From positions 4,216,001 through 4,280,000 of the forward strand of contig NZ_AP025739.1 in assembly GCF_003574315.2 (NCBI RefSeq): 64,000 nucleotides of DNA, given 5' to 3'. How positions within the stretch are numbered: the first letter of the stretch is position 1; each line of letters starts with the position of its first letter. Made by a program: the position numbers and the translations under genes. This document shows positions 4,940-56,339 of the stretch, piece by piece. The notes beneath the pieces are model-generated. The model was not told the DNA's origin. It worked only from the letters and a program-made list of their open reading frames with translations, and ran no database searches. The DNA is from Capsulimonas corticalis (GTDB lineage: Bacteria; Armatimonadota; Armatimonadia; Armatimonadales; Capsulimonadaceae).

Positions 4940-4980
4940 TTGGTCTCAGTATTGTCATATTTTTCGTGGTGGACCCTGGT

Positions 4981-5751: not shown

Positions 5752-5762
5752 CCTCTCAGCAT

Positions 5763-6515
5763 TTAAGCCTTCAGGGCGTTGCGCAAAGCCTGCTCTGCAG
5801 CTTGTTCCAGCAGTCGGTCTTCATGGCTGAAAATCTCCTGCTTCTCCTCATCGCTCAGTCCTTCAGATAGCGCTGCTCGAACACGCGGGTCGATCAAAGT
5901 CTTGACTGCTTCGACCACCGCATTAAGCGCCTTGCCTGGATTAATTTCGGTTTCTCCCTCTGCGGATGAGGTTTCGCCAAAGTGAGACACGAGAAAATCG
6001 GTCAGGCGTTCCGTCGCGTGAGGATAGCGGAGCATAGTTCGTAATTCGCTGCGCGCCTGCATCCATGTTTCTGGCTTGTGCTCTTCGTCAAGCCGTTGCC
6101 CTGTCAATTCGCTGAAAATTCCGTCTCGCGGAGCTGCAATTCCACGCAGATCTGCGATATAGTGTGCGGCGCGATCATTCTGGGCGATCACGAACACAGA
6201 AGGAGATTTCAGCAGCTGCTCGACGTGCTCCCGCGCAAATTCTCGCTTATAATTTCCTGGACGGATATCCTTTTCAAGGATCGGACTTTCAGGCCAGCCA
6301 TCCATATCAAATTCAGGATCCTCAGGATCTTGAGGAGTTCGGATTGCGGTATGAAGAGCTTCATCCGCGTCAGGGAATTCAAACACCATTCCGTCGTACT
6401 CCAGTCGGGCGAACGCTAAGCCATTTCCTGAACTCGGATACGTCTCAAAGACTGCTGATCGGGTTTTTTCATGCTGCTCGGGGTGTGGCGAGCTTGGGAC
6501 ATGCTCAAAGTTCAT
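5763..6515 (-). CDS. Unknown acidic helical protein, convergent to cas6
   Basis: I do not recognise this 250-residue protein. It is acidic and largely helical, has no membrane segment and shows no obvious catalytic motif. The C-terminal 60 residues (VVEAVKTLIDP through AEQALRNALKA) look like an amphipathic helical bundle. Residues 80-130 hold a mixed segment with FVIAQNDRAAHYIADLRG. It is transcribed toward cas6 with only 11 nt between the stop codons, and its promoter would lie in the A+T-rich region after 6515. The position beside the CRISPR operon does not prove a shared role. Codon use and length make a real gene likely. Confidence 0.65.
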   Translation of the reverse strand: MNFEHVPSSPHPEQHEKTRSAVFETYPSSGNGLAFARLEYDGMVFEFPDADEALHTAIRTPQDPEDPEFDMDGWPESPILEKDIRPGNYKREFAREHVEQLLKSPSVFVIAQNDRAAHYIADLRGIAAPRDGIFSELTGQRLDEEHKPETWMQARSELRTMLRYPHATERLTDFLVSHFGETSSAEGETEINPGKALNAVVEAVKTLIDPRVRAALSEGLSDEEKQEIFSHEDRLLEQAAEQALRNALKA

Positions 6516-7155
6516 TCATTCTGTGTTAGTTCTTGCTGCGCATATTGTATCTGGACTTGTGCGTGTAATCAACAATGATTTTTCGGCAGGATTACTGCTA
6601 CTTTATGATGAAATGAAAATGTGAAGCAGCGCAATTTACGCGTGTAGAATGGGTTGAGGGCAGCTGAGTTTATTTATCGATAACAGAATGGCGCCACAAC
6701 CATCGTTTATGGATAAAATCCTGCCATATTAGGGAGATGGCTTGAGAGCAAGAACGGTAATGAAACGCGAAAATACACACAGATTAAACAATACTCTATT
6801 CAGGGCTAAGGGCTTACGCCAAAATAACCGCTTCGATTTTTACAGCATTGCCCATCTCAGGGCGTCGTCTAAGTTGAAGCGTTTATTTTTGAATAAGTCC
6901 TAAACGTGGGAGTACGCCGTTCCAGCATTGTAACGGAAAGAGTATGTTCCAAAACTATCTAATAGTATGCTTGTCAGCTTGGTAGAAACGAAATATAAGT
7001 CTTGAGCCGTCGAAAAGTACATAGAAGTCATTCCAAAATGACCTGCTCTAGTAACAATTAATTAAACCAGAAGTCTTAGGGTTCAACGTTTTGGAACACA
7101 CCCGAAGCGTACAGATCGTATTGAGCATCACTCGTTTGCGCCGAAAGGAGTCAGT
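6516..7155. other. Non-coding 640-bp region with an 11-bp inverted repeat
   Basis: No convincing gene was found. The stretch is more A+T rich than its surroundings and probably contains the divergent promoters of the flanking genes. An exact inverted repeat TGTTCCAAAAC (6945-6955) / GTTTTGGAACA (7088-7098) brackets 132 nt. No CRISPR-like direct repeats are visible. A clear ribosome site AAAGGAG lies just before the ATG at 7156. Confidence 0.5.
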
Positions 7156-7533
7156 ATGTCAACATATCTCTTATTTCATTCTGCACCCGAAATGCACGAG
7201 GGGCAGCCGTCAGACCCGATGAACGATGTGTTGGTGGAAATCGACGATGACGTCGATCTCGACGATGAGCGCTCCGTAAGGTCAAAAGCAGGGCTCTCCG
7301 AGGTGATAAACACGACCGTGGTTCGTGCCACCATATCGCTGCAGGAAGCCTTACAGCGAACTATTCAATCCAACGTATACGCACTCCGCAATGCCGTGAA
7401 ATCATTGGAGGAACCCCCGAATGAGATGGAGATTTCCTTTGGCCTCAAGGTCACTGCGGAGGCAAGTAATGTCGCTGTCGGCAAAATCGGCGGCGAGGCC
7501 AACTATACCGTTAAACTGACCTGGAAAGCTTAG
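7156..7533 (+). CDS. Trypsin-co-occurring domain 1 (Trypco1 / CU044_2847-like) protein
   Basis: This 125-residue protein matches the CU044_2847/Trypco1 family by its pattern: an acidic N-terminal strand (NDVLVEIDDDVDLDD), a central helix (EALQRTIQSNVYALRNAVKSL), then 'PNEMEISFGLKVTAEASNVAVGKIGGEANYTVKLTWK', the typical 'FG-x-K-x-x-x-x-x-x-x-I-A..G.A.F.V.L.W' strand pair. In comparative-genomic work on NTP-dependent conflict systems this domain co-occurs with trypsin-like proteases fused to STAND NTPases, which is exactly the downstream neighbour. It is probably a partner or substrate of that protease. The ribosome site AAAGGAG sits 6-7 nt before the ATG. A 322-nt gap separates it from the giant gene. 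Confidence 0.75.
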   Translation: MSTYLLFHSAPEMHEGQPSDPMNDVLVEIDDDVDLDDERSVRSKAGLSEVINTTVVRATISLQEALQRTIQSNVYALRNAVKSLEEPPNEMEISFGLKVTAEASNVAVGKIGGEANYTVKLTWKA

Positions 7534-7855
7534 GCATCATTTAGGTAAGCTAGACTTTATCCATTTGCCGCCACCGTGTTCAGATGGAAGCGCGAAGCGA
7601 TCCTTGATTTTATGCATTTTGGTATTTGAGGACTACATGCGTAAATGTCGTTGATAGTTATTGCTGGACGTCGCCATAGATGGGGTAGCGTGTTTGGAAA
7701 TGGATGAACTCTAGGTAAGCGGCAATTTCTTCGCTGATATCGTTTCACTGGCGAACCTTTCGGGTTATAAGTCTCCCTTATCTCCCCATAACGTTGGGTT
7801 TGGTAGGGAGGGTGGGGACCGAACTGGTGAGGCGGGACTTCGTGATCGAAAGCTC
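7534..7855. other. Non-coding 322-bp spacer between Trypco1 and the STAND gene
   Basis: I see no supported gene in this spacer; short open frames on both strands lack ribosome sites and family resemblance. It may carry a separate promoter for the giant gene, but I cannot point to convincing -35/-10 boxes. Confidence 0.4.
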
Positions 7856-7867
7856 TTGGAGGTGGAA

Positions 7868-10800
7868 TTGAGAGTACTGGACGTTGACAAAACCGTTGAT
7901 CCTACTACTGCAATCATAAAAATCCTCAAACCCAACGGACGCACCGAAGGAACCGGGTTTATTGTGTCTCGCACCGGCCTCATCGCGACGTGCTCCCATG
8001 TGGTAACGAATGTCGGCGCCCGGCCTGGTGACAAGGTTTCGATCCAGCTCAAGGCTACCGGAGAAAAGCGAACAGCTACCGTTCTACCCGAAGCTTGGAC
8101 CGACATAAATCTTCAAGACGTGGCGTACCTACGGCTTGATGGCGCGCTGTCTGATCTTTGCCGCGTCATGCCACTGGGCAGTGACCAGTTTCTGGATGTC
8201 AAAGAGGCGAAGACCTACGGGTATTCGCTTGGTGTCAGCAAAGATGGCATGCCGGGTGACTGTGAACTTGTAGGCCCCAACATCGTAGATGGCTCTCCTG
8301 CACATACACTGCGCAGCAATGAAATTGACCATGGCTTCAGCGGGGCGCCAGTGTGGCATCCCGAGCTGCATTGTGCCATTGGGATGATCTTTAACGTTTT
8401 TGACACCCCATCTCCACGGAAAGACCAACCACCGAAACCCGTGACCAAAGGATTGCTGACCGCTTTCATGCGTCCTGTCTCCCTGCTTCGATCTCTGTAT
8501 CCAGAAGTAATCGATACAACTGAAAATCCATATCGAGGTTTGCAAGCGTATCGCAATACAGATGCCGACGATTATTATGGTCGCAGTGATGCGATCCGGC
8601 GTTTGGTGACACTTCTGTCCGAGCATGATTTCGTATCTGTTATCGGTCTCTCCGGAAGCGGAAAGTCGTCACTCTTGCGAGCCGGTTTAACTAAAGGCCT
8701 CCAGCAATATAACCAGGCGACTCTCGCCGGCCGCATCCGCTGCGAAACGACGCCCGGCGGCTATCCGACCATTGCGTTGCTGACGCAGATCTTGCAGTTC
8801 TCCGAGTGGTCCTGGGAGCGATTTCAAGATGCACTCGGAATTACACGACTTCCTCTGACTGGCGATGAACTTAGCCTCAAAACCAATATGGAGCGTCTGA
8901 TTGAACTGGATGTCGATGGGGTGGCTGCGGCAATCAAGCAATCCCTCGGTGGCCAAAAAGCCCTTCTTACAATCGACCAGTTCGAACAAATCTTTACCGG
9001 GTGTACACACGAGAAGTTTCGAACGAGTTTCATGGACCTGCTTATCGCCTTGCCAAAGTATGGAGTGAAAATTGTGATTGGCGTCCGAGCCGATTACATC
9101 GGTCACGCGTTCGAATATGACCATCTCTCAAAGGCAATACAAGGCAGCCTCATCTTGACCTCCATGGACCGGCAAAATCTGAGCGAGTGTATTGAGCAGC
9201 CCGCCAGACATCGCGAATGTGGCGTTGATCCTCGGCTCGTTCGGCAGCTCATTGACGACGTCTATGGACGTGCAGGTGATCTTCCACTCCTGAGTTTTAC
9301 TCTTGAAAAGCTCTGGGAAACGGATGCGAAGAAGGGCATCCTGACCCTGGAGACGTATAAGAAGTTTGGCCAATCCGTCGTGGTTGACGAAGATATCGGC
9401 GGTGTCCAAGCCGTCTTGATTGGGATGGCGGAACAAGTCTGGGAATTATTGTCTCCAGAAGAACGCATTCAGGCGGAATGGGTCTTTCTGTCCCTCGTTG
9501 CAGAAGAGTCGATACTGGGTGGCCAGGAGAACATTAAGAAAAGCGCCGGACGGAGGGCTCTGCTCGCAGAATATAGTGATGGGACTCGCGCGACCGCCAT
9601 CAAGCTGCATGAGTCGTTTCTCTTAACATTCGGGCACGACACGGTGCGCGACAAGCCGACGATCCAAGTTGCCCATGAGGCACTCTTGTGGACATGGCCG
9701 CGCATGGTTACGCTTATTAACCAATACCGTCCATTTCTCAATTGGTACAATACGGACTTTTCTGTTCGGCTCAATCAATATATTGCGTCTAGGCAGAGCA
9801 AAGATCAGCTGCTGCCGAAAGCGGCACTCCGACAAGCTAGCATCTGGTATAGCCAGCATCCAGAACGGTTTGCCGGTCCTCCGTTAGAATATATCAAACA
9901 AAGCCTCAAAGTGCGTAAGGCGACTATGACTAGAAGGGTTGTCTTCGCGGGGATCGCGATCCTCTGTCTCCTCATAGCCGGCGCAAAATATAATCAGCAA
10001 ACGAGACAGCAACAGGCACGGGAATATATCCAGCAGGGCAAGGATGCCCAAGCCGCACGTGATTACACCACCGCACAGAAATATTATGCCCTTGCTTTGA
10101 AGTCGGTGGACGATCCCACCACGCGTCAAACGCTGCTCGATGTCGCGGCTCAGGCACCACATCTCCGAGTGGTTCAAAACGGCACGTTCAAGTGGCTTGC
10201 GACCGCAGCTTCGGGTAGTCAAACACTCGTGGATATGGGGAAAGGGATAGTGGCCGTTTACGACACCAATACGCTGAAACGCCGTTCCATCTCGTCGTTT
10301 ATCTCCTCCAAGATTGCTAAGGGAGCCTTGTCGAGCGACGGTTCCGTTGCTGCGGTGAGCTGCTCCGATGGCAGCTATTATATCTGGGACATTGCAAAAG
10401 ATCAGGTCAGTCCGTTGCAGATTGCGGGTTCTAATCCCGGCGCGGCGGTCGCGGTCTCTCCGAATGGGCGGAGCGTCGTCGTGTCGGATGAACTTGGTCG
10501 AACGTGGGTCTATGATCGCGTCACAAAGAAAAAACCTGTTCTGCTCCGTCCAAACAGCAGTGATCCATTCTGGTGCATTGCCTTCAGCCCCGACGGTCGT
10601 AAAATCGCGGCCGGAGGCGAAAGTACGGATGTGTACATATGGCAGGTTGCCTCGTGGCAAAAGACGATATATCGGAGCGTCAGCAACGATGTCATCAGTT
10701 CCATAGCGTTCAATGCCGATAGTGATCTGCTCGCAGTCGGCGCTGCCGATACAAATATCCGGCTCATCAATCTAAAAGACGGAAGCCGTCGCGTCCTCTC

Positions 10801-12034
10801 CGGCCATTCGGACGCAATCTTGGATGTCGCTTTCTCGCCGACTGGCAGCGAACTTGTGTCTTGCGGACAAGACAAGACGGTCCGGATCTGGAATGTTGCC
10901 AATAGTGTCGAACTCCAGTTGATCAACATCGGTGATCGCTCCGTCACTTCGGCGACGTTCACGAACTCTGGCAGTGTGTTCTATTGGGAGGCTCCGTCTT
11001 CGGCGGAGCCTGGTCTCAGTACTCTGCGCGTGGTCGATCAGCAAAATCCACGGTTCGGATATACGCTTCGTTATGGCGAAGCCATCAATCAAGTTGTGAT
11101 GAGCCCCGATGGGAACTCAATTGCTATCGCCGGAACACAACGCGATTCGTCCGGGCATCAGCATGCATTTGTGGCGGTAACTAACATGGCAATACACGCC
11201 CAATATCTTATCAGACCGGCGGGTGACAGATCGATCACCGCCGCCGCCTATTCGCCCACCGGGGATACCTTTGCGGCGGCGTGTCTCGATGGCTACGCTC
11301 GGGTCTGGGATACCTCTTCTTGGACCGAGCTAGCGTCGATCAAACATCCCTCTCCGGTCGTTACTGTTTTATACCTCTCCGACACGCAGTTGCTGTCTGG
11401 GGACAGACTGGATGGAAAACAAGCAAGGTTAACTTTGGCTGATCCTCATGGACATTCTTCCATCAATATCCCCTATGATCAAGGTTCCGTCTTCTCCACA
11501 GCATTAGACGTCAAACATAGTTTTCTTGCACTTGGCGGCGGCGACAATCGTGTCCTCGTCCTCTCCGCTCAATCACTTCCCGAGCGCAAAATCGTTTTCG
11601 AAAAAAAGAAGCTGAATACATCCATTTGGGCTGTCGGCTTTGTCGAGTCGTTAGGAAAATTACTCGTCGGAGACGGTTCCGTCATTCGAGTCTATGATCT
11701 CCTCACGAAGCATAGTGACAAAGAGTTGCCAAGCCAATGCGGAGACGTCTACAGCTTTGCCACCATGCCGAACTCGAATCTTGCGGCGGCAGCTGGTTCA
11801 GGCGGCTCCATTGATGTGTGGGATATGACGAAAGAGTGTGTAATTCTGAGCTTTCATGATCACACCGGACCGATTTGGCGTGTGGCATGGGACAGCTCCG
11901 GCCGCTGGCTCGCATCCGCTTCAATGGATGGTTCCGTTCGGGTTCGCGACATGCAAAGCATCCGCGAATTAACTCATATGAACGTCGATCAACTGCTGCA
12001 CGCCTTAGTGGAGGACAATCCCCAGATGCAATGA
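7868..12034 (+). CDS. Trypsin-like protease - nSTAND1 NTPase - WD40 conflict-system protein
   Basis: The start chosen is TTG 7868, because GGAGG lies 5 nt upstream; the frame is open to TTG 7856. Numbered from 7868, residues 1-200 form a small trypsin-like domain with H44 in ATCSHVV, D84 in DVAYLRL and S158 in HGFSGAPVW, so the triad looks complete. ENPYRGLQAY then opens a novel-STAND NTPase with Walker A GLSGSGKSS (about 260-268) and Walker B ALLTIDQFEQ (D370). One membrane helix lies near 690-708, followed by WD40-type repeats to the C-terminus (for example SGHSDAILDVAFSPTGSELVSCGQDKTVRIWN). By analogy with described STAND systems, the propeller senses a signal, the NTPase switches or oligomerises and the protease cleaves a partner such as the upstream Trypco1 protein. 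All domains appear intact. Confidence 0.85.
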   Translation: MRVLDVDKTVDPTTAIIKILKPNGRTEGTGFIVSRTGLIATCSHVVTNVGARPGDKVSIQLKATGEKRTATVLPEAWTDINLQDVAYLRLDGALSDLCRVMPLGSDQFLDVKEAKTYGYSLGVSKDGMPGDCELVGPNIVDGSPAHTLRSNEIDHGFSGAPVWHPELHCAIGMIFNVFDTPSPRKDQPPKPVTKGLLTAFMRPVSLLRSLYPEVIDTTENPYRGLQAYRNTDADDYYGRSDAIRRLVTLLSEHDFVSVIGLSGSGKSSLLRAGLTKGLQQYNQATLAGRIRCETTPGGYPTIALLTQILQFSEWSWERFQDALGITRLPLTGDELSLKTNMERLIELDVDGVAAAIKQSLGGQKALLTIDQFEQIFTGCTHEKFRTSFMDLLIALPKYGVKIVIGVRADYIGHAFEYDHLSKAIQGSLILTSMDRQNLSECIEQPARHRECGVDPRLVRQLIDDVYGRAGDLPLLSFTLEKLWETDAKKGILTLETYKKFGQSVVVDEDIGGVQAVLIGMAEQVWELLSPEERIQAEWVFLSLVAEESILGGQENIKKSAGRRALLAEYSDGTRATAIKLHESFLLTFGHDTVRDKPTIQVAHEALLWTWPRMVTLINQYRPFLNWYNTDFSVRLNQYIASRQSKDQLLPKAALRQASIWYSQHPERFAGPPLEYIKQSLKVRKATMTRRVVFAGIAILCLLIAGAKYNQQTRQQQAREYIQQGKDAQAARDYTTAQKYYALALKSVDDPTTRQTLLDVAAQAPHLRVVQNGTFKWLATAASGSQTLVDMGKGIVAVYDTNTLKRRSISSFISSKIAKGALSSDGSVAAVSCSDGSYYIWDIAKDQVSPLQIAGSNPGAAVAVSPNGRSVVVSDELGRTWVYDRVTKKKPVLLRPNSSDPFWCIAFSPDGRKIAAGGESTDVYIWQVASWQKTIYRSVSNDVISSIAFNADSDLLAVGAADTNIRLINLKDGSRRVLSGHSDAILDVAFSPTGSELVSCGQDKTVRIWNVANSVELQLINIGDRSVTSATFTNSGSVFYWEAPSSAEPGLSTLRVVDQQNPRFGYTLRYGEAINQVVMSPDGNSIAIAGTQRDSSGHQHAFVAVTNMAIHAQYLIRPAGDRSITAAAYSPTGDTFAAACLDGYARVWDTSSWTELASIKHPSPVVTVLYLSDTQLLSGDRLDGKQARLTLADPHGHSSINIPYDQGSVFSTALDVKHSFLALGGGDNRVLVLSAQSLPERKIVFEKKKLNTSIWAVGFVESLGKLLVGDGSVIRVYDLLTKHSDKELPSQCGDVYSFATMPNSNLAAAAGSGGSIDVWDMTKECVILSFHDHTGPIWRVAWDSSGRWLASASMDGSVRVRDMQSIRELTHMNVDQLLHALVEDNPQMQ

Positions 12035-25970: not shown

Positions 25971-26195
25971 AATACCGCTTCTTTGCCAGAGAAGTGAAAG
26001 ACGGGGCGATTGATGTGGCACCTATGGGATATGAGATTTCGGAGAGTGCGCTCACAGGGTTGCCGATATTGAGGAAAAAGGTCGGGTAGGGGACGAAGTA
26101 TACTTTGGTGTGTGCATCTCAGGATGCACCAGGATAAAATACACTATGCCGTCAATTCGAATTCAGGTGTATTCGAATTGACGGTTTAACCTGTC

Positions 26196-26633
26196 TCAAC
26201 TTGACGATGTAGACTGCTCACCATCGTCTCCACTTACCACTCGATTCTCGGAGACTACTTCTCTGCGAAGAAGCACGGTCTGCGTATCATGAAACTCGGT
26301 GCGGTGTTGTGCGATGTGGATTTCTTCCTTGAGTTTCAGCCGCTTTTCCACCACCAAGACCTCTTCCATCACTGGTATGATCATCACATCACCCTCATGG
26401 CGTATCGGCGGCGCGGCGTCCACAAATCGGTCAATGAGGACGTGACGGACCTCAACCTCGGTGCGCAGAAATGGGATGTCGACAACTTCCTCGCGCTCGG
26501 TCACCGTCTTGGCGATGCGTACCTTGCCCGTCTCTACAATACGCTTTCTCACATCCACCGTTTCTTCGACGATGGGTACGACGATTCGATTCTCGTCGTT
26601 GACAAGCGTATCCCTGAGATCGTCTTCTGACAT
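26196..26633 (-). CDS. DUF2382 (YsnF/AvaK-like) stress protein
   Basis: The 145-residue protein carries one DUF2382 domain: IVVPIVEETVDVRKRIVETG near residues 17-36, then the second half IIPVMEEVLVVEKRLKLKEEIHIAQHRTE (about 78-106). The domain is defined by repeated 'IPV.EE.L.V.KR.V..G.VRI...' strands. DUF2382 proteins are common in desiccation- and stress-tolerant bacteria; their biochemical role is not established. ATG 26633 has AGGAG 7 nt upstream. It is last in the stress cluster, 121 nt after the next gene, with a hairpin between. Confidence 0.8.
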   Translation of the reverse strand: MSEDDLRDTLVNDENRIVVPIVEETVDVRKRIVETGKVRIAKTVTEREEVVDIPFLRTEVEVRHVLIDRFVDAAPPIRHEGDVMIIPVMEEVLVVEKRLKLKEEIHIAQHRTEFHDTQTVLLRREVVSENRVVSGDDGEQSTSSS

Positions 26634-26671
26634 AAAATTCTCCTGTTTGTTACCGCCAATAAAACTTAATA

Positions 26672-26710
26672 CGCCCAGGGGCTGATCGCTGCCGATCCTC
26701 CACCTGGGCG
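26672..26710 (-). terminator. Hairpin between two DUF2382 genes
   Basis: An 8-bp stem CGCCCAGG (26672-26679) / CCTGGGCG (26703-26710) lies after the stop of the 26755-27537 gene. On the minus strand it is followed by TATTAAGTTTTATT, a modest U tract. It may attenuate or end transcription before the last DUF2382 gene. Confidence 0.45.
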
Positions 26711-26754
26711 CATGATTGTGAACGGAAACTCCCGTTCTGGCATTCGTCTAAAGC

Positions 26755-27537
26755 TTAACGCCTCAGATCGCGCTCGGCTTCCAGTTCCTCAACCTCGACA
26801 TCCGTGCGCCGCACGGTGTCATGGATGGTCTCCACGCGATCCGTGGCGGTCTTGCCAATCACGACTTCCTCCACAACGCGCGCGGTCTTCGCAACTACGG
26901 GAACTTCATCCGTTTCCGTGAGCTCGATGACGCCATCCTGGAAGGCGTTATCCGCGCTGGAAACCGCGCGGTCCACGGGACGACGATCTACGACGACATG
27001 CTCTTCATGAAGCGTGACGTTTTCCTGCACGGGCGTCTCGATAACTTCTGTGTGGACGCGAGCGCCGCCCGACTGCACCTGTCGCTTGCCGACTTCAAGT
27101 TCTTCCTCAATCACGGGAATAACTGTCTTGCCATCGGCGTCCACGACATCCGTCCGCGCCAGGGTATCTGTGGGAGTGGCGGCAGCCGCCGAATAATCCT
27201 CCACACGAGCAGCCGCAACGGGAGTGGGTACGGTGTTTGCCGCCGATGGCGTGCTGTAAGTATCCACTGGACGGATAGTATTCGCCACGGGGGCATCCGA
27301 ACCAGCGACTGTGCGGGCGTAGTCGTGATCGTGTTTGTCCACCACATCTACCGCCGCCGCAGAAGCCGCGCCGCCCGCAATGGCTCCGATGAGTGCGCCC
27401 ACGGGGCCGCCCGCCAGGCCGCCTACAATGGCTCCGCCGACCGCGCCAAGCACGCCGCCTTCGGTCACATCGTGCTTCGTTGCAGGCTCTTTTCCGTGTT
27501 CATCGAGAACTTCATCTTTATAATCGTTCGTGGCCAT
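26755..27537 (-). CDS. DUF2382 protein with N-terminal glycine-zipper segment
   Basis: ATG 27537 is chosen because AAAGGA precedes it and MATNDYKDEV is a natural opening; an upstream ATG at 27654 would overlap the previous gene. Residues 28-70 form a glycine-zipper hairpin (GAVGGAIVGGLAGGPVGALI, then GAIAGGAASAAA), probably membrane-inserting. A proline/threonine/alanine-rich linker follows. The C-terminal DUF2382 domain (about 135-255) contains TVIPVIEEELEVGKRQVQSG and VPVVAKTARVVEEVVIGK, ending with charged repeats. It is co-oriented and 56 nt downstream of the preceding DUF2382 gene, so the two are probably co-transcribed. Confidence 0.85.
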   Translation of the reverse strand: MATNDYKDEVLDEHGKEPATKHDVTEGGVLGAVGGAIVGGLAGGPVGALIGAIAGGAASAAAVDVVDKHDHDYARTVAGSDAPVANTIRPVDTYSTPSAANTVPTPVAAARVEDYSAAAATPTDTLARTDVVDADGKTVIPVIEEELEVGKRQVQSGGARVHTEVIETPVQENVTLHEEHVVVDRRPVDRAVSSADNAFQDGVIELTETDEVPVVAKTARVVEEVVIGKTATDRVETIHDTVRRTDVEVEELEAERDLRR

Positions 27538-27592
27538 AGTTTTCCTTTTATCTTTCGAATGATTGGCTGTAATCGCTGATGACGTGTTAAGA

Positions 27593-28402
27593 TTAGCGCG
27601 AGACCTTCTGTGTCTCATTGACTTCCAGATCGTCGCCGTCAATTTCTTCGACATTCACATCCGTGCGGCGCACGGTGTCATGCACGGTCTCGACGCGATC
27701 CGTGGCAGTTTTACCGACAACGACTTCTTCGACCACGCGCGCTGATTTAGCGACAACAGGGACTTCCTTCGTCTCAGTGACTTCGAGGGTCTTTTCGGCA
27801 AACGCCGCGTCAGCATCGGTGATGGGGCGATCCACGGCGTGGCGGTCTACAGTCACGGTTTCTTCGTGCAGGCTGATCTGCTCATCCACGGGGCGCTCAG
27901 TGATATGCTGATAAATGCGCACACCGCCACGCTGTACCTGTCGCTTACCGACCTGCAGTTCTTCCTCGATCACGGGAATGACGGTGTTATCGTCCGCCGC
28001 GTTAAGACCAGTCGCAGTGAGGTTCGCTGAGGGCGCGTATTCGGTTCCCGTTTTTTGATAGAAATCGGCGACGTTTGTTTCGATGTCGAGCGCGCCGTTG
28101 GCGTTAAGGATATCGGCGGCTTTTTGGGTCCTGTCGTCGGTGGTTGTTACCGTCACAAACGTTTGACCGTCGCGAAGTCCGTTGGAGTAATACGCCGCAT
28201 CGTGCTTTGGAGCAATCAAATGAAGTTTGCCCAGAACCTTGTCCCAGCCACTTTCCTGAGCGGTAGTCGCCGCGCCAGAGGCATTCACGCGGTATGTTTC
28301 GACAACGATGTCGTTGGAGGAGAAGCCCGTCTGCTCTAGCGCCTGCGCTGCCTGATTCGCGGCGGCAATCGTATCGTATAGTCCTAAAACTTCCGTAGAC
28401 AT
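27593..28402 (-). CDS. General stress protein 17M-like N-terminus fused to DUF2382
   Basis: ATG 28402 is chosen: GGAAGGG lies 9 nt upstream, and MSTEVLGLYDTIAAANQAAQ matches the start of general stress protein 17M/YflT-like domains. Upstream in-frame ATGs at 28420 and 28465 lack this support. Residues 1-95 hold that alpha/beta domain (with DAAYYSNGLRDGQTFVTV), and residues 145-260 the DUF2382 domain (TVIPVIEEELQVGKRQVQRG, VPVVAKSARVVEEVVVGK). B. subtilis YflT is a SigB-controlled protein, which fits the SigB-type promoter 130 nt upstream. A companion of the same design is encoded at 29488-30303. Confidence 0.85.
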   Translation of the reverse strand: MSTEVLGLYDTIAAANQAAQALEQTGFSSNDIVVETYRVNASGAATTAQESGWDKVLGKLHLIAPKHDAAYYSNGLRDGQTFVTVTTTDDRTQKAADILNANGALDIETNVADFYQKTGTEYAPSANLTATGLNAADDNTVIPVIEEELQVGKRQVQRGGVRIYQHITERPVDEQISLHEETVTVDRHAVDRPITDADAAFAEKTLEVTETKEVPVVAKSARVVEEVVVGKTATDRVETVHDTVRRTDVNVEEIDGDDLEVNETQKVSR

Positions 28403-28523
28403 TATCTTAATCCCTTCCATGTTCTTTTGCTGATTTTGGTTGTCCATAGGGTGGGTTTTTGTCAAAAACTACGATGGCTTTTGACAAAGTTTCTCTTGGC
28501 GAGAAGCTCGCTCCCTAGCAACA

Positions 28524-28602
28524 TTCACGGTTTACCCTGTGCTTATGCAATGCAAACACTTGCAATTGAAAAATTTCAGCTCGTACTCTGAACGAGCTGA
28601 AA
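28524..28602 (-). promoter_or_regulatory. SigB-type promoter with upstream hairpin (copy 1)
   Basis: On the minus strand: hairpin TTTCAGCTCG / CGAGCTGAAA (28574-28602, 9-nt loop), then 16 nt, then GTTTGC (28552-28557), 14 nt, GGGTAA (28532-28537), then ACCGTGA. GTTT-N13-15-GGGTA is the consensus of SigB/SigF-type general stress promoters. The hairpin is followed by TTTTTC and may also terminate the upstream 28667-29401 gene. The same arrangement recurs at 31121-31191 with identical spacing. Confidence 0.7.
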
Positions 28603-28666
28603 ATCGGTTAAGCGGAAGTGAGAATTAAATTCACCGTCTCGACGATGAACGTAGTGTATCGCCACA

Positions 28667-29401
28667 TTACTTTTGTTGTGCGACGGTGGCGTGCAGATAT
28701 GCCTTCTGGAACTGAACCGCAGTGTAGTCGGCTCCGCCCACGCCGTAGGTCTGGTTGATCGCTTCCTGCGTCGGCATCGCTTCCACGACGCCGATCAAGG
28801 ATACGGGATGACCGCTTGCCACGGTCACCTTCGTGTTTTCATTTGCTCCCGCATCCATGCCTTTATCCAAAAGCACCAGGGCTTGTTGCTGCGGTGTAGG
28901 GCCGACGAAGAATGCCCGATCACTAATGACCTTCTGCACCATCACATTCGTCAGCTTGGCGCGGCGGCCAATGAAGGTCGCGGGATCGGTAGCATTGGCA
29001 AACAGAACAACATCACTGAGTGGGACGCCAGGTACGCTTGCCTGAGCTGGCTTGGCCGTGGCAATGTCGGTTCCACTATGGACTTTGATATTTTTGCCCG
29101 CGACATTAGCATCAGATGTCGTAGCTACTACTGCGTTGCCTGTCGCGGTTACACGATCCGTAATTGCAGGAGCGGGATTCGTCACTGCTGCAGGCGCAAC
29201 AACAGGCGCTGAAGTGGAAATTGGCGCGGTTTGCGCCTCAGTCGCATCATGCTTACGGTTTAGGAGCGCGAAGAGCAGACCCAAGAGCAGTGCGGCTAGT
29301 AAAAGCCAGGGCCAAATAGGAGACCCTTTGCGTTCGCGATAGATTTGTGCGCCGCCCGTCGCTCCCTGGCGACTGGCATCAGCGTTGTCTTTGTCTACCA
29401 T
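28667..29401 (-). CDS. Membrane-anchored unknown protein with OB-like C-terminal domain
   Basis: The 244-residue protein has a short cytosolic N-terminus, one membrane helix (residues 29-47, PWLLLAALLLGLLFALL), an alanine/threonine/proline-rich linker (50-130) and a C-terminal beta-rich domain: ATFIGRRAKLTNVMVQKVIS, AFFVGPTPQQQALVLL, VSLIGVVEAM. The strand order resembles the OB-like fold of small periplasmic ligand- or nucleic-acid-binding domains, but I cannot name a family. It lies in the DUF2382 cluster, 86 nt after the previous gene and upstream of a hairpin, so it is likely part of the stress regulon. Confidence 0.7.
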   Translation of the reverse strand: MVDKDNADASRQGATGGAQIYRERKGSPIWPWLLLAALLLGLLFALLNRKHDATEAQTAPISTSAPVVAPAAVTNPAPAITDRVTATGNAVVATTSDANVAGKNIKVHSGTDIATAKPAQASVPGVPLSDVVLFANATDPATFIGRRAKLTNVMVQKVISDRAFFVGPTPQQQALVLLDKGMDAGANENTKVTVASGHPVSLIGVVEAMPTQEAINQTYGVGGADYTAVQFQKAYLHATVAQQK

Positions 29402-29487
29402 TTAAAGAAAATTCCTTTGTTAAGCGTGTTTCTAGATCAGAAATAGTTTTGGCGTCGATTAGTGCCGCGAGCGCCGTGACTATCGGG

Positions 29488-30303
29488 TTAGATGCGGTCG
29501 CGGGTCGTCGCGCCGTTGGTAAGGTCTTCGACCTCGACCTCGGTGCGCCGCACCGTGTCATGAACCGTTTCGATGCGATCCGTCGCTGTTTTGCCGACGA
29601 TCACTTCCTCCACCACACGCGCCTCTTTGGAAACCACGGGCACTTCTTTTATCGACGTGACCTCCAGCGTCTCCGCCTGGAATGCGGTATCGGCGGATGT
29701 TACAGGACGATCCACGGGATTTCGCTGGACCGAGACATGCTCCTCATGAAGAGTTACCTGTTCGTTGACAGGGCGCTCTTCCACGCGTTGAAAGACACGG
29801 ACGCCGCCGCGCTGGATTTGTCGCTTGCCAACCGCCAGTTCTTCTTCTATGACTGGGATGACGGTTTCATCCTGGGAGCTTGCTCCAGTCTTTGGGGCGA
29901 CAACTCGTTCTGCTGATGCTCCCAGGAGACTGGCCGCGCCGATCCCCGCTGCCCCGACTTCTGCGGCGGGCAGAACGCTGCTGCGCTGGGCGAAGGCGTC
30001 ATGGATGTCGAGCGCGCCATGCTGGTTCATGATCTCCTGCGCCAGCGTTGCACGGTCGTCGTCCACGCGAGCAATCTCCAGAGTGTCGCCAGAACGAACT
30101 CCCTCTGCGAATAAGCGGGCGTCATCTTTGGGAACGCTCTCTTCTTCGAGTTCATTGATGAGGGCGTCGAAATCTGCGCCTGCATCATTGCTGGGAGTCT
30201 TTAGGTCGATTGTGCTGCGGCTAAAGCCGTTGTTGACCAAATCATTCAGGGCCGCTTCCGCATCGGAACGTTGTTCAAAAAGTCCCACGACTGTACTTGC
30301 CAT
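29488..30303 (-). CDS. General stress protein 17M-like N-terminus fused to DUF2382
   Basis: The 271-residue protein begins MASTVVGLFEQRSDAEAALN, the stress protein 17M/YflT-like opening. It continues with an acidic region (residues 35-70), a short alpha/beta unit (VRSGDTLEIARVDDDRATLA) and the C-terminal DUF2382 domain (about 145-260; TVIPVIEEELAVGKRQIQRG, VPVVSKEARVVEEVIVGK). GAGGAG lies just before the ATG. It follows the MscS-like gene by 24 nt and probably shares its SigB-type promoter. Confidence 0.85.
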   Translation of the reverse strand: MASTVVGLFEQRSDAEAALNDLVNNGFSRSTIDLKTPSNDAGADFDALINELEEESVPKDDARLFAEGVRSGDTLEIARVDDDRATLAQEIMNQHGALDIHDAFAQRSSVLPAAEVGAAGIGAASLLGASAERVVAPKTGASSQDETVIPVIEEELAVGKRQIQRGGVRVFQRVEERPVNEQVTLHEEHVSVQRNPVDRPVTSADTAFQAETLEVTSIKEVPVVSKEARVVEEVIVGKTATDRIETVHDTVRRTEVEVEDLTNGATTRDRI

Positions 30304-30327
30304 GTTTGTTCTCCTCTTGACAATGGA

Positions 30328-31053
30328 TTAAATCTTCGCGTTGCTATTAACGGGCGCCGCCTTCGCCACCGTCTTTTGAGCTTGACCTACCCACTGCTCT
30401 GTCAAGCGAGCCGCCGTATCGCGACCACCGAGACCGAACGCTAGGCCGAGCGCCAGAGAAATTGCGGCGACGAGTCCGATATAGAGAGTGTTGACGACGA
30501 CTGGAGCAACGCCGAGCTCATTCACAGCAGCAATAATCGCAAAAGCCATAACTGTGAAAGACGCCAATTTTCCCAGAAGGCGAGGATCGTTCATTCCTGC
30601 TTCGGAAGCGGAAGCGCGCACGATTCCTGAAAGAAGATTTCCAAGGAACGCCCCGACGCCCAGCAACAGCAGAGCCACGAAAATATTAGGGATATAAGCC
30701 AGAATGCGATTGATGAGGACCGTTACCTGAGTAAGCCCGCATTGCTCGGCGGCCATCTCGATAAAGACCAATCGCACTACCCACTTGACGACTTCGCCCA
30801 AGACATTGCTTGCCTTCATTCGCGTTCCAGAGCGGCTGAGAAATTCGTTAACTTTTGCGTGATCTGCCAGCGTGTCGATATGAACAGCACGCGCAAATTT
30901 CGTAATCACAGTGGCCAGCAGTCCTGCAACAATCCAACCGATCACCATCAGCAGCAGCGCTCCCAGAACGGTAGGAATTCCCGCCATTATGCGATCCAGA
31001 CCTGCGGTAAGCCCATGCCATAACGATCCCGACCAATCAGTAACTGTATTCAA
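30328..31053 (-). CDS. MscS-like membrane protein (conserved TM helix family)
   Basis: The 241-residue protein begins at TTG 31053 with GGAGA 8 nt upstream. Hydrophobic helices occur near residues 24-50 (IPTVLGALLLMVIGWIVAGL), 85-105, 115-140 (IPNIFVALLLLGVGAFLGNL), 160-180 and 185-215 (ALGLAFGLGGRDTAA). The final GLAFGLGGRDTA motif is the TM3-like pore-lining signature of CmpX/MscS-related proteins that lack the cytosolic vestibule. It probably helps with membrane tension or osmotic stress. First gene of the stress unit, directly downstream of the second SigB-type promoter. Confidence 0.85.
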   Translation of the reverse strand: MNTVTDWSGSLWHGLTAGLDRIMAGIPTVLGALLLMVIGWIVAGLLATVITKFARAVHIDTLADHAKVNEFLSRSGTRMKASNVLGEVVKWVVRLVFIEMAAEQCGLTQVTVLINRILAYIPNIFVALLLLGVGAFLGNLLSGIVRASASEAGMNDPRLLGKLASFTVMAFAIIAAVNELGVAPVVVNTLYIGLVAAISLALGLAFGLGGRDTAARLTEQWVGQAQKTVAKAAPVNSNAKI

Positions 31054-31120
31054 TTGTGTAGTCTCCAGACGTTTGTTGTGAGAAGTATGATAACAGCTTC
31101 ATACTGGTAGCCCTCACGGT

Positions 31121-31191
31121 GTACCCCGCAGTTATGACAGGCAAACACCGTCAGCCTTCGGATTTCAGCTCGCACTCTCAGCGAGCTAAAA
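31121..31191 (-). promoter_or_regulatory. SigB-type promoter with upstream hairpin (copy 2)
   Basis: On the minus strand: imperfect hairpin with AGCTCG/CGAGCT core (31163-31191, ACTCT-containing loop), then 16 nt, GTTTGC (31141-31146), 14 nt, GGGTAC (31121-31126), then ACCGTGA. Layout and spacing are the same as copy 1. The neighbour on the other side (31317) is transcribed away, so here the hairpin does not serve as a terminator for a minus-strand gene and is more likely part of the control element. Confidence 0.7.
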
Positions 31192-31316
31192 ATAAACTTT
31201 TTTGGAGAGAAATGAAGTGAGTATAGACTGATATTCTCCACTCCTCGTATCATGGGTTATAATTATGAAAACTGGGGAATATCCAAACAAACGCAAGGCC
31301 AATCTCGATCACTCAT

Positions 31317-32633
31317 ATGCAAGATCAACTGAAAATTCTCATTGTCGATGACGCTGAATCAGATCGCCGCCTCGTGAAGCGATCCATCGAGCGTTTTTAT
31401 CACCACGCATACGTCCAAGAAGCAAAAACTTGCACTGAAGCCACCGAAGCTATGGCTTCTCATGACTTCGACTGTATCTTTCTTGACGCTTGGTTACCTG
31501 ATGGCGATGCGCTTCCTTGTCTCAAGGACATGCGTCGGCTAGGCAACACCACGCCGATCATTATTCTGTCAGGGCTCGGTGATGAGGAAGTAGCGCTGGA
31601 AGCAATACAAGCGGGAGCCACGGAATATCTGTCAAAGAGTGAACTGACCCCACAATTGCTGAAGCATCGCCTACGCAGCGTTCTGCGCGCTCATCAATCT
31701 CAAGCCCAGATACGACATGCACACGCTGCCCTCCAACTTCGCGATAGAGCAATTGCCGCCGCCAGCAATGGAATCGTTATTTGCGCCTCTCAGGAGCCAG
31801 ATTGTCCGATCATTTATAGCAATCCTGCATTCAGTGTCATGACGGGGTATTCCTCGAAGGAAGTGATGGGACGCAATTGCCGATTCCTACAAGGCGCAGA
31901 TACAGACCAAAATTGTATTCAGCAGATCAGGGATAGCCTGCGAGAAGAACGCGAATGCCAAGTCATCTTTAAGAATTATAAGAAAGACGGCAAGGCTTTC
32001 TGGAACGAACTGACGATCTCGCCCGTGCGAGACTCCAAGGGCATCCTGACGCATTATATTGGAATTCAAACGGACATTACTCTACGTCGTGAGGCGGAAG
32101 AAGCCCTTCGGATCAATATGGCGCGCCAACAAACAGTGTTGCGGGACATGTTTTCCAGCGTGACCCATGGCAAACTGACACTCTGCGGATCGGTAAGCGA
32201 TCTCCCCGATCCCTATACACGGTTTGCTGAGCCTGTCTCGTTATCGCAGACCAGTGGCATTCGAGAACTGCGCACTTATGCTATGGATGCCTGTCTCGCG
32301 GGAGGCATGGAGGAAGAAAGGCGATATGACCTTGAGACTGCTGTCGGCGAAGCCGCGATGAACGCCATCGTCCATGCCGATAGTGGGGTAGGGCATGTGT
32401 TCGTGCATGAGCGAGGGACAGTTCAGGTCAAGGTCGAGGATGAAGGGAGCGGCATCGCGGTAGAAGACCTACCCAACGCCACATTGCAACGAGGTTTTAG
32501 TTCCGCAGGAACGATGGGGCACGGCTTTAAGATGATTTTGCAGACCGTGGACCGCGTTCACCTTTTAACGGGAGCTACGGGAACGACAGTTGTGATGGAA
32601 CAAGATCGTATGGCTCCTATCCTCAAGTGGTGA
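31317..32633 (+). CDS. Response regulator - LOV photoreceptor - RsbW-like HATPase
   Basis: Residues 6-125 form a receiver domain with acidic pocket D11/D12, phosphoacceptor D57 (FLDAWLPDGD) and K107. Residues 145-265 form a LOV-type PAS: MGRNCRFLQG carries the flavin-adduct cysteine C188, and NYKKDGKAFWNEL is the usual LOV continuation. Residues 280-430 form a HATPase_c of the RsbW/anti-sigma class, with N-box EAAMNAIVHA, G1 VEDEGSGI and G2 GTMGHGFKMI. The design suggests blue light and phosphorylation jointly control an anti-sigma or anti-anti-sigma kinase. It starts a plus-strand unit divergent from the stress cluster. The ATG is at the end of TCATATGCAAG, without a strong ribosome site. 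Confidence 0.85.
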   Translation: MQDQLKILIVDDAESDRRLVKRSIERFYHHAYVQEAKTCTEATEAMASHDFDCIFLDAWLPDGDALPCLKDMRRLGNTTPIIILSGLGDEEVALEAIQAGATEYLSKSELTPQLLKHRLRSVLRAHQSQAQIRHAHAALQLRDRAIAAASNGIVICASQEPDCPIIYSNPAFSVMTGYSSKEVMGRNCRFLQGADTDQNCIQQIRDSLREERECQVIFKNYKKDGKAFWNELTISPVRDSKGILTHYIGIQTDITLRREAEEALRINMARQQTVLRDMFSSVTHGKLTLCGSVSDLPDPYTRFAEPVSLSQTSGIRELRTYAMDACLAGGMEEERRYDLETAVGEAAMNAIVHADSGVGHVFVHERGTVQVKVEDEGSGIAVEDLPNATLQRGFSSAGTMGHGFKMILQTVDRVHLLTGATGTTVVMEQDRMAPILKW

Positions 32634-35090: not shown

Positions 35091-35552
35091 TCAAGCGGCC
35101 TCATTATACGCCGTTGCATCTTCGATGGAGAGTAAAATCATAGTGCTGTCGTGCCGCTTGATTTGTCGCGCATAGAAAACAAGCGTCTTCAGGTCAACCC
35201 CTAAGAATTTGCTGGAAACTTTTACAATGGCGTAGTGATGTCCCTGAACTATTACATCATGTAGGAGCGTGTGTATCTCTGGAATATTCCATTGGCCTTG
35301 ATGAACGTCATATAAGGAGTCTGCGATAATAGATACTTCCGTTGAACCACACTCCGAACTATATGCTTGATTGAATGCGCAAATATTTGCGCTCTCATCC
35401 AGCACAAGAAGCGGGTGAAGAATATCATCCAGAGTGGTTTTTGAAAATATAAGCGCAACTTGATCGCTTGTCTGCTTACTGACTGAATGTAGTGGTGCTA
35501 GAAGCATCTTAGTCCGAACGTCCACGCTGGTGATCTCCATATCGGTTCGCAA
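35091..35552 (-). CDS. Stand-alone PAS domain protein
   Basis: The 153-residue protein is essentially one PAS domain (about residues 30-150). It has HPLLVLDESANICAFNQAYS, then a GQWNIPEIHTLLHDVI segment and a final LLSIEDATA strand. The QWNIPEL...LL signature is known from PAS domains that follow CheR in CheB-CheR-PAS fusion proteins and also appears in the first PAS of the phosphatases at 35743 and 42282. No output domain is present, so it may act as a sensory adaptor for a neighbouring regulator. A later ATG (MEITSV) is a possible start. Confidence 0.75.
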   Translation of the reverse strand: MRTDMEITSVDVRTKMLLAPLHSVSKQTSDQVALIFSKTTLDDILHPLLVLDESANICAFNQAYSSECGSTEVSIIADSLYDVHQGQWNIPEIHTLLHDVIVQGHHYAIVKVSSKFLGVDLKTLVFYARQIKRHDSTMILLSIEDATAYNEAA

Positions 35553-35742
35553 TGCTTCAATGCAGCGAACCGATTTGATCGGTGCATCGACTTGTCAGTA
35601 AACAAGATACCCCGAATTTTAGCTTTTGAAAAATTGTATGACAAGATATGCCGTATGATAATGCTTGCTTGGTGGCGTGATTTATAATGTCGATTGATGG
35701 GTACAGCTATTATCACCTTGTCATATAGTTTCTGAGGTTTCC

Positions 35743-37299
35743 ATGCCGCGCGCCAATTTGCTTCTTCAAGAAGCAATGACTTACATTCTCAATATCGGCG
35801 ACAGCATTAGAGACCCCTTGCTAGTTTTGGATACCAAACTTCGAGTCGTGTCCGCGAATCGAGCTTTTTATAAAACTTTTCGATCAACAGCGAATGAAAC
35901 TGAGAACCAGCAACTCTCTGATTTGGGAAACGGTCAGTGGAATATTCCTGAACTTATCGCTCTCCTCACAAAAATTCTCCCCAACAAGAAGCCCCTCGAC
36001 GACTTCGAGATATCCCACAACTTTCCAAAGATCGGGCGTCGTGATATGCTCGTTAATGCACGGAAACTGTTTGGCGCAGGAAATCGTAATGCTCTGATCA
36101 TTCTGGTCATAGAAGATATCACTGAACGGAAGCAAGCGCAGCAAGCAGTCGCTGTCTCAGAAACGCGTTATCGACGACTTTTTGAAGCGGCTCGCGATGG
36201 AATTTTGCTTCTCGACAGTGAGCATGGAAAGATCACGGAAGCCAATCCATTCATGACCGAGCTTCTTGGTTATTCTCATGAGGAACTCATAGGCAAGGAA
36301 TTATGGGAGATCGGTCTGCTCAAAGATGAAGAGGCCAGTCGCGATGCTTTTCGCCAATTGAAGGAACAAGGCTATATCCGATACGAAGACTTGCCGCTCG
36401 CAAGTGAGGGAGACAAGAAACGCGAAGTCGAATTCGTCAGCAATATTTACCAGGAAGGCAATACTCAGGTCATTCAATGCAATATCCGTGATGTGACGGA
36501 GCGTAAACTGTTGGAGGCCAAAGTTGCTGTAGAACACAAGCGGGACAAGAAAATCGCGACCGTCCTACAGCGTACAATGCTGTTTCAGCCGAATGAGGAT
36601 GCCTTTTCTGGATTGTCAGTTCAGACCGTATATTCTACTGCTTCGAACGAAGCGCTCGTTGGCGGCGACTTTTGGGACACATTTGCTTTTGACCATGGGC
36701 ATGTTGCCTTGGTCTGTGGCGATGTGATGGGACACGGCCTTTCATCCGCCGTGTTTACCACGGAACTCAAGCATACCCTACGAGCATACATACGTGAGCA
36801 TGTGCAGCCATCACGCATTCTGCAGCAGATGAACGATTATCTTTCTGAGAGCAACCGTCTTTTTTTAAAAGGAATCAACACGGAGGGTGGTGATATGCCC
36901 GTGTGTCTGTCGCTTGCGATTATTGACCGACAAACGGGTATGGGAACTGTTTCAGTGGCGGCAATGGAAGGACCGTTGTTGATCCGCACAAATGGCGTCA
37001 CGGAAGTTTTGAAAGCGTCAGGGATGCCGCTTGGTATTAATATGGAGCCGAAGAGCCGATATCACCAGGTTGACTTCCAGCTTGCGGTTGGGGATACGCT
37101 CGTGATGGCCACGGATGGCGTCACGGAAGCGCGGCATGGCAAGGAGTTTCTTGGAGACGATGGACTGGCGAAGCTGGCGGTGAAGCACCGCCACGGAACG
37201 CTGAAAGACATGGGCGAGGCAATCTTGACTGGCGCCGTAGATTTTGCTCACGGTGATTTACGCGATGATGCCTGCCTGGTGCTGGTTCGCAAGAAGTAA
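35743..37299 (+). CDS. PAS - PAS - SpoIIE/PP2C phosphatase (RsbU-like)
   Basis: The 518-residue protein has PAS 1 (10-130, with GNGQWNIPELIALL), PAS 2 (140-265, RRLFEAARDGILLLDSEHGK...NIRDVTERK), a short helical linker and a SpoIIE-type PP2C phosphatase (285-518). Metal-binding motifs are present: VGGDFWDTF, VCGDVMGHGLSS, TDGVTEARHG and the final RDDACLV. Such phosphatases remove phosphate from STAS anti-anti-sigma proteins when their sensor is triggered. GAGG lies before the ATG. It is about 75% alike to the protein at 42282 across its whole length by eye. The phosphatase looks complete and active. Confidence 0.9.
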   Translation: MPRANLLLQEAMTYILNIGDSIRDPLLVLDTKLRVVSANRAFYKTFRSTANETENQQLSDLGNGQWNIPELIALLTKILPNKKPLDDFEISHNFPKIGRRDMLVNARKLFGAGNRNALIILVIEDITERKQAQQAVAVSETRYRRLFEAARDGILLLDSEHGKITEANPFMTELLGYSHEELIGKELWEIGLLKDEEASRDAFRQLKEQGYIRYEDLPLASEGDKKREVEFVSNIYQEGNTQVIQCNIRDVTERKLLEAKVAVEHKRDKKIATVLQRTMLFQPNEDAFSGLSVQTVYSTASNEALVGGDFWDTFAFDHGHVALVCGDVMGHGLSSAVFTTELKHTLRAYIREHVQPSRILQQMNDYLSESNRLFLKGINTEGGDMPVCLSLAIIDRQTGMGTVSVAAMEGPLLIRTNGVTEVLKASGMPLGINMEPKSRYHQVDFQLAVGDTLVMATDGVTEARHGKEFLGDDGLAKLAVKHRHGTLKDMGEAILTGAVDFAHGDLRDDACLVLVRKK

Positions 37300-50177: not shown

Positions 50178-51068
50178 TTAAGCGGCTCTTGCGAGCTGTT
50201 GCTGTTGCTCAAAATGGCGCTGTTCAAATTGAGCGGGGCTGATATAACCAAGCGTCGAATGTCGACGCTTGCGGTTATACCAGACTTCAATATACTCGAA
50301 CACCGATGCTTTTGCCTCGGCGCGAGTGCGAAACACTTGTTCCGGAAGCAACTCCATCTTTAACGTCGAAAAGAAGCTCTCCGCCACGGCATTGTCCCAG
50401 CAGTTGCCTTTACGGCTCATGCTGGCAACCATGCCGTGGCGCCGGAGCTTGTCCTGATAAATGAGACTGGCATACTGACCGCCCCGATCGCTGTGATAAA
50501 GCAGGCCTTCTGGCGGACAACAACGTTGGATCGCCATCTCCAAAGCGTCACAAACTAACCCCGCTTCCATCGTTGCCTGCATTGACCAGCCAACGACGCG
50601 GCGACTGAACAAGTCCAGAACGACAGCCAGATACAGCCAGCCTTCCCGTGTCCAGAGATACGTGATATCGCCGACCCACCGCTGATGAGGAGCGGAAACC
50701 GTGAACTGGCGATCCAGCACGTTCGACGCCACCGGCAACGCGTGATCCGATTGGGTCGTTACTTGGAAGCGCCGTCTTTTCTTCCCCACGATCTGATGGC
50801 TATGCATCAAGCGCGCCACACGATGACGACCACAAGCGACGCCTTGATCCCGCAGTTCGAGATAAATGCGTGGACTGCCATAGGTGTCGCGGCTTTGTCC
50901 GTGCTCCTTTTGGATCTGCACCACCAACGCCTGCTCCTGGGCCTGTTCTTCGAGGCGACGAGCGCTGCGTTTCTGAGAACGCCAGGCGTAGTAGCTACCG
51001 GATTTGAGCTCCATGGCCCGGCAGAGCATTTGTACCGAGAATTGTCCCGCATGATCTTGAATAAACAT
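50178..51068 (-). CDS. IS3-family transposase OrfB
   Basis: The 296-residue integrase-type transposase has an HTH_21-like N-terminus (YGSPRIYLELRDQG) and an rve core with D in WVGDITYLW, D in YHSDRGGQY and E in AVAESFFSTLKMEL. The C-terminus YNRKRRHSTLGYISPAQFE is typical of the IS3/IS51-type branch. The canonical start would be GTG (VRYRFIQDHAGQF) overlapping the OrfA stop as GTGA, but a 16-bp tandem duplication (51050-51081) puts that GTG out of frame and leaves ATG 51068 (MFIQDHAGQF) as first in-frame start. The coding region is otherwise intact. Confidence 0.9.
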   Translation of the reverse strand: MFIQDHAGQFSVQMLCRAMELKSGSYYAWRSQKRSARRLEEQAQEQALVVQIQKEHGQSRDTYGSPRIYLELRDQGVACGRHRVARLMHSHQIVGKKRRRFQVTTQSDHALPVASNVLDRQFTVSAPHQRWVGDITYLWTREGWLYLAVVLDLFSRRVVGWSMQATMEAGLVCDALEMAIQRCCPPEGLLYHSDRGGQYASLIYQDKLRRHGMVASMSRKGNCWDNAVAESFFSTLKMELLPEQVFRTRAEAKASVFEYIEVWYNRKRRHSTLGYISPAQFEQRHFEQQQQLARAA

Positions 51069-55967: not shown

Positions 55968-56339
55968 GTCATTTATTATACTCTAGTGCTTCTCTAGTTC
56001 GCACGCATCCGGCGCGCGCAAGCTACCTGAATGACCTTAGTCTCGTTTGATCCCTCGGGACTGCCTAGGTCATATGGTGTTTTCTCATCATATTGTCGTA
56101 CATGACGCCCAGATGGCGCTTATTGCTGATTTCACGAGAGCACGGTCTGCGAAGCGTCACGGAGCCGGGATGGATTGCAGATAGCGTGTGCTTCGGTCAT
56201 GGGGCCGTATTAATAATCTTCGTTTTTGTTGAGAGTCCTGAGAATTCTTAATTGTTCTGCCGATAATTTCCATCAGTGCTCGCGCTAATTCTGCTGTGCG
56301 TTTTGAGGAATGTCGCTTGGATAGGAACAGGATCAGATC
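55968..56339. other. 372-bp divergent promoter region
   Basis: The space lies between two divergently transcribed signalling genes. No gene is supported. It should hold both promoters; I could not identify convincing boxes and found no SigB-type GTTT-N14-GGGTA element here. Confidence 0.4.

Follow-up and report, generated by a model that had tools for sequence, protein, structure and literature searches.

Why should a hairpin stand at a fixed distance upstream of a SigB-type promoter, and do so twice within one stretch of DNA? The question is raised by a region of 64,000 nucleotides from Capsulimonas corticalis (the window), located at 4,216,001-4,280,000 of a single 7.65-Mb contig, for which two hairpin and SigB-type promoter elements with equal spacing had been predicted. 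Both elements, here called c1 and c2, are present as described and lie on the minus strand (Table 1), and the extent originally given for the pair, 28524-31191, is correct to within two bases. Each consists of a T run, an 11-pair stem with a 7-nt loop, 16 nt, GTTTGC, 14 nt, GGGTA, one base and ACCGTGA. Folded as RNA, the hairpins reach -16.1 kcal/mol in c1 (z -5.1) and -16.3 kcal/mol in c2 (z -4.6). The first gene of the operon behind c1 likely starts with the ATG at 28401, according to the ORF-based call. The upstream neighbour of c1 is the c2 operon, on the same strand, and c1 has no divergent gene.

Table 1. Positions of the two elements, their parts and the neighbouring genes in the window
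Feature	Position	Strand	Description
c1, whole element	28525-28604	minus	
c1, palindrome	28574..28602	minus	TTTCAGCTCGT-TCAGAGT-ACGAGCTGAAA; 11 bp, 7-nt loop, then TTTTT
c1, SigB-type promoter	28533..28557	minus	GTTTGC-N14-GGGTA; 16 nt 3' of the stem
c1, operon	26196..28465	minus	three DUF2382 (PF09557) genes; ORF-based gene calls
c2, whole element	31114-31193	minus	
c2, palindrome	31163..31191	minus	TTTTAGCTCGC-TGAGAGT-GCGAGCTGAAA; 11 pairs, one of them G-T; no T-tract after the stem
c2, SigB-type promoter	31122..31146	minus	GTTTGC-N14-GGGTA
c2, operon	28667..31053	minus	mechanosensitive-channel-TM protein (PF05552), DUF2382 protein, membrane-anchored protein without Pfam match
Divergent gene facing c2	31317..32633	plus	response regulator - PAS - RsbW-like HATPase_c_2

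The core promoter and its probable sigma factor

As the test for SigB-type boxes we took the published Bacillus subtilis consensus, GTTTAA-N15(+/-2)-GGGTAT (PMC9847131). In c1 and c2 we found GTTT at -35 and GGGTA (test form GGGTA/GGGWAW) at -10, spaced by N14, within the range of N14 +/- about 2 that the test allows between the hexamers. The two sites share with the B. subtilis promoters both boxes, a spacing in the published range, general-stress-type genes downstream and an rsbV-rsbW-sigB operon in the genome, but differ from them in the palindrome of 25-29 bp that C. corticalis adds at a fixed upstream distance. The SigB-homologue promoter SCO3557p of Streptomyces coelicolor, given as GTTTGC-N14-GGGTAC, is identical to c2 in boxes and spacing; a term search of the paper found no mention of an inverted repeat upstream of such promoters, whereas c2 has one (PMC8346170).

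The genome supplies the matching factors. An operon encoding a STAS protein, an RsbW-like HATPase_c_2 protein and a sigma factor (rsbV-rsbW-sigB) lies at 6.86 Mb, 2.6 Mb from the window elements, and two sigma factors of the SigB/F/G type in C. corticalis, this one and another at 5.04 Mb, score above the curated TIGR02980 cut-off. Each of the seven family genomes has at least one such factor. The RsbU-, RsbV- and RsbW-like proteins predicted for the window are indeed encoded there, as three SpoIIE phosphatases, one STAS protein (detected by Pfam) and four HATPase_c_2 proteins, respectively. Either these proteins or the rsbV-rsbW pair beside sigB may control the promoters. With matching boxes, a sigB operon that includes the RsbV/RsbW switch and a second SigB-type factor in the genome, the assignment of the GTTT/GGGTA boxes as a SigB-type promoter is strongly supported.

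The boxes alone do not stand out by number. In the window, two GTTT-N13..16-GGGTA sites were found against 0.69 expected, which is not significant, and in the C. corticalis genome GTTT-N15/16-GGGTA as such is not enriched (74 sites versus 105 in the reversed control). Genome-wide, sites with N16 outnumber those with N15 (52 versus 22, p about 0.0003); nothing but this imbalance and the location of sites in front of genes argues for a SigB-type regulon. Several N16 sites precede plausible stress genes, encoding a glycine-zipper protein that resembles those of the c1 operon, a YgaP-TM/polyketide-cyclase protein and an NlpC/P60 protein, and another precedes a TerC-like protein, as judged by eye. 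The sequence GTTTATATGGATAATAAGCTGGGTAT (locus 4163-4187, plus strand) is found 29 nt in front of a gene for an M20 peptidase, 4 kb upstream of the rsbV-rsbW-sigB operon.

The hairpin is separable from this core. In a related genome (G006) the channel gene has an orthologue with 81% identity, which has GTTT-N16-GGGTAT in front of it but no hairpin. SigB can therefore do without the hairpin, and the core promoter stands by itself with the hairpin as an addition. At 30 other N15/N16 promoter loci examined in the C. corticalis genome the palindrome was not found, a few of them having unrelated inverted repeats; this, together with the G006 orthologue, bears out the view that the hairpin lies outside known SigB promoters. 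The literature that we searched likewise yielded no upstream palindrome in a published SigB consensus, and no study of SigB control in Armatimonadota. What appears to be new is thus a conserved upstream palindrome added to an otherwise ordinary SigB-type promoter.

The SigB-type promoter is kept before orthologous genes in G006 and in a genome of a different genus of the same family (G004, see below), and there are hints that SigB-type control of DUF2382 operons may be older than the palindrome. In the sister family (G011, G014, G017, G018), DUF2382 operons have GTTT-N16-GGGAA sites nearby and no hairpin. In the named relatives scanned, no such promoter was accompanied by an AGCTC palindrome.

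Further copies and conserved parts

The original prediction survives its own refutation test, a lack of further copies: two more were found, one in C. corticalis (c3) and one in G004. With loosened gaps, exactly three sites were found in the 7.65-Mb C. corticalis genome, namely c1, c2 and c3, the last at 3,151,817-3,151,896 on the minus strand, 1.1 Mb from the window copies. The palindrome AGCTCG-N9-CGAGCT (12 arm bases, 9-nt loop) also occurs at only three places in these 7.65 Mb, each time with the promoter at equal distance. Among 291 genomes of the phylum Armatimonadota, CGAGCTGA-N14..22-GTTT-N16-GGGTA matched c1, c2, c3 and a single G004 site, and the reversed-pattern control gave three scattered matches elsewhere. 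Although the pattern permitted a gap of 14-22 nt, in all four elements 18 nt lie between CGAGCTGA and GTTT, and the length from CGAGCTGA to GGGTA is 51 nt, so that palindrome and core promoter are always equally far apart. When the four were used to build a covariance model, it detected them at E 1e-15 or better and found no further member in seven family genomes, where the next new site had E 0.17.

A comparison of c1 with the G004 element separates conserved from free positions. Identities are 4/4 in the T run, 14/14 in the arms, 4/4 in GTTT and 5/5 in GGGTA, versus 2/18 in the 18-nt spacer, 3/16 in the N16 between the boxes and 2/8 in the 8 nt after GGGTA; c1 and c2 give a similar picture (arms 13/14, spacer 7/18). 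Since the intervening sequence has been randomised between c1 and G004, arms and boxes are evidently held by selection. The alignment shows functional constraint on palindrome and promoter at the level of sequence, and the palindrome is, by the same comparison, under selection and not a relic. ACCGTGA, which had been counted as part of the element, is present in all three C. corticalis copies and missing at G004, so it is the least constrained part, outside the conserved core.

The likeness of the elements might also reflect shared descent only, an ancestral promoter having been copied with its genes and the hairpin being functionless. A DUF2382-containing operon lies downstream of all four elements, the downstream genes being related, and the c3 operon, a second DUF2382 operon, is a 90% copy of window positions 25981-28603 (2.6 kb), the duplicated segment stopping at the outer edge of the hairpin; c1 and c3 are recent duplicates. 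The comparison with G004 largely refutes such a reading, as its spacers are random relative to c1 with arms and boxes intact, and a functionless hairpin would be expected to decay as the spacers did. We therefore regard descent alone as very unlikely.

The half-sites are spaced as AGCTC-N11-GAGCT in c1, c2 and c3 and as N12 in G004, 1 bp more. At the c3 locus (5863-5897) the arms run as in c1 and c2, but the loop between them is turned round: the c3 loop agrees with the others at 1/9 positions as it stands, and at 6/9 and 7/9 once reversed. An inversion between the arms, as after recombination or template switching, explains this state, which speaks against a contact in the loop that depends on orientation. 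By eye, another inverted repeat, TTTGTC...GACAAA, was noticed in the post-promoter leaders of c1 (window 28405-28505, minus strand), c3 and G004 (locus 5390-5490, minus strand).

Possible functions of the palindrome

Measured from the inferred start, the palindrome is centred at about -64, with 51 bp between its centre and the -10 box. The hairpin would then lie outside the transcript, as the start is assumed at the usual distance after GGGTA. Class I activator sites of the CRP type are centred near -61.5, a similar position relative to the inferred start; their sequence is unrelated, and the sigma factor here is of the SigB type. Because of its fixed distance, conserved arm sequence and class I activator position, the palindrome is best read as an operator. 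We see an even chance that the elements are composite stress promoters, in which a SigB-type core is combined with a palindrome to which a dimeric regulator would bind; of all readings, operator function is the likeliest, about as probable as everything else taken together. In this mechanism the GTTT-N16-GGGTA core would be read by a SigB-type sigma factor and the palindrome bound, as double-stranded DNA, by a dimeric regulator, which the fixed distance and helical phase would allow to contact the holoenzyme. The regulator would most likely be an activator, less likely a repressor, and the DUF2382 and mechanosensitive-channel stress operons would come under a second signal on top of the general stress signal.

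In the usual description, SigB control is a switch with one input that works via partner switching. If the operator reading holds, a subset of SigB-type stress operons would also need a second, DNA-bound input, and the palindrome would offer a concrete operator sequence, a handle for finding the regulator in Armatimonadota. In addition, DUF2382 proteins, widespread yet hardly studied (our literature search on them gave nothing useful), would be linked to SigB-type regulation at the family level.

Several features speak against an operator. Most operators can make do with arms shorter than the 10-11 bp seen here, the orthologous G006 promoter lacks the palindrome, and only four copies are known, the recent duplicates c1 and c3 among them. 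The half-site gap wider by one base in G004 would weaken the operator reading, being unusual for a rigid dimer site, as would the G-T pairs in c2 and c3, with which the RNA stem of the minus strand is preserved while the DNA palindrome becomes imperfect; these pairs suit a minus-strand RNA hairpin as well as DNA.

Alternatively, the hairpin may be an intrinsic terminator or insulator, halting upstream transcripts before the stress promoter, with the fixed distance a result of compact packing. At c1 the case is textbook on the minus strand: 11 pairs and TTTTT follow the stop codon of the preceding same-strand c2 operon by 65 nt, and the c1 hairpin can double as intrinsic terminator of that operon, a point absent from the original prediction. 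The RNA hairpin is, moreover, stable in c1, c2 and c3. A GC stem with a T-tract after a same-strand gene was, however, found at c1 and at none of c2, c3 and G004. The original prediction that c2 cannot terminate a minus-strand gene is confirmed, its upstream neighbour being divergent, and c3 and G004 likewise lie between divergent genes. Because these three have divergent upstream neighbours and their stems lack a following run of five T, termination is not the common function. In G004, moreover, another GC hairpin, this one with T8, lies immediately upstream, and termination demands neither an exact spacing of 18 nt nor an arm sequence conserved between genera. As a general explanation, termination is thus unlikely, if the strongest of the single alternatives.

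The inverted repeat could instead act as DNA structure, a cruciform or strand-specific hairpin, responding to supercoiling or blocking or loading polymerase at the SigB promoter without a sequence-specific protein. Near-perfect arms of 10-11 bp, the inverted c3 loop between preserved arms and the tolerance of loop length (7 nt in C. corticalis, 12 nt in G004) would agree with this. In contrast, the two genera agree at 14/14 positions of the arms (CAGCTC/GAGCTG), beyond what pairing requires, and the G004 stem is short (8 pairs) and on the minus strand weakly better than shuffles (z -1.5). We consider structure by itself improbable, a little more so than termination. Slightly less doubtful, though still a reading to which we give a low probability, is a new stress-promoter class of Armatimonadota. 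Its SigB-type promoter would have, as an obligate upstream module, a long inverted repeat whose arms are conserved and whose loop can invert, and through which a separate regulator or DNA structure would gate a small DUF2382 sub-regulon.

Another assignment would make the palindrome chiefly an operator or repressor site of the divergent signalling gene, with an incidental link to the SigB promoter. Both c2 and c3 do lie between a stress operon and a sensor gene (response regulator-PAS-HATPase at c2, GAF-GGDEF-HD at c3). However, c1 has no divergent gene, the kind of gene differs (the G004 element, which precedes an operon of two DUF2382 genes, faces a glycosyltransferase-like one), and the fixed distance runs to the stress promoter, which leaves little probability for such a role.

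A diverged HrcA/CIRCE heat-shock operator would have a like layout, with long arms around a 9-nt spacer and stress genes, and TTAGC occurs in the c2 and c3 arms. The arm sequence differs, canonical sites with 0 and 1 mismatch exist elsewhere in the genome, and we hold this origin to be extremely improbable. CIRCE lies at or after the promoter, whereas the palindromes here are at -64. As a motif, CIRCE (TTAGCACTC-N9-GAGTGCTAA) was rejected, no palindrome being within 3 mismatches of it. The canonical sites are at 4454452-4454478 and 3966122-3966148 of the C. corticalis contig, and an ordinary HrcA system is therefore likely present.

The related locus at 3.15 Mb

The surroundings of c3 (3280-12001 of the extracted locus) contain paralogous pieces of the window in another order, corresponding to window positions 25981-28603 (90%), 56330-58775 (79%), 35098-36393 (95%) and, reversed, 13600-12324 (90%). 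By this resemblance, the 3.15-Mb locus and the window appear to be a duplicated signalling and stress region. Within the signalling region of the window, an IS3-type transposase (rve, HTH_21) is encoded at 50178-51068 on the minus strand.
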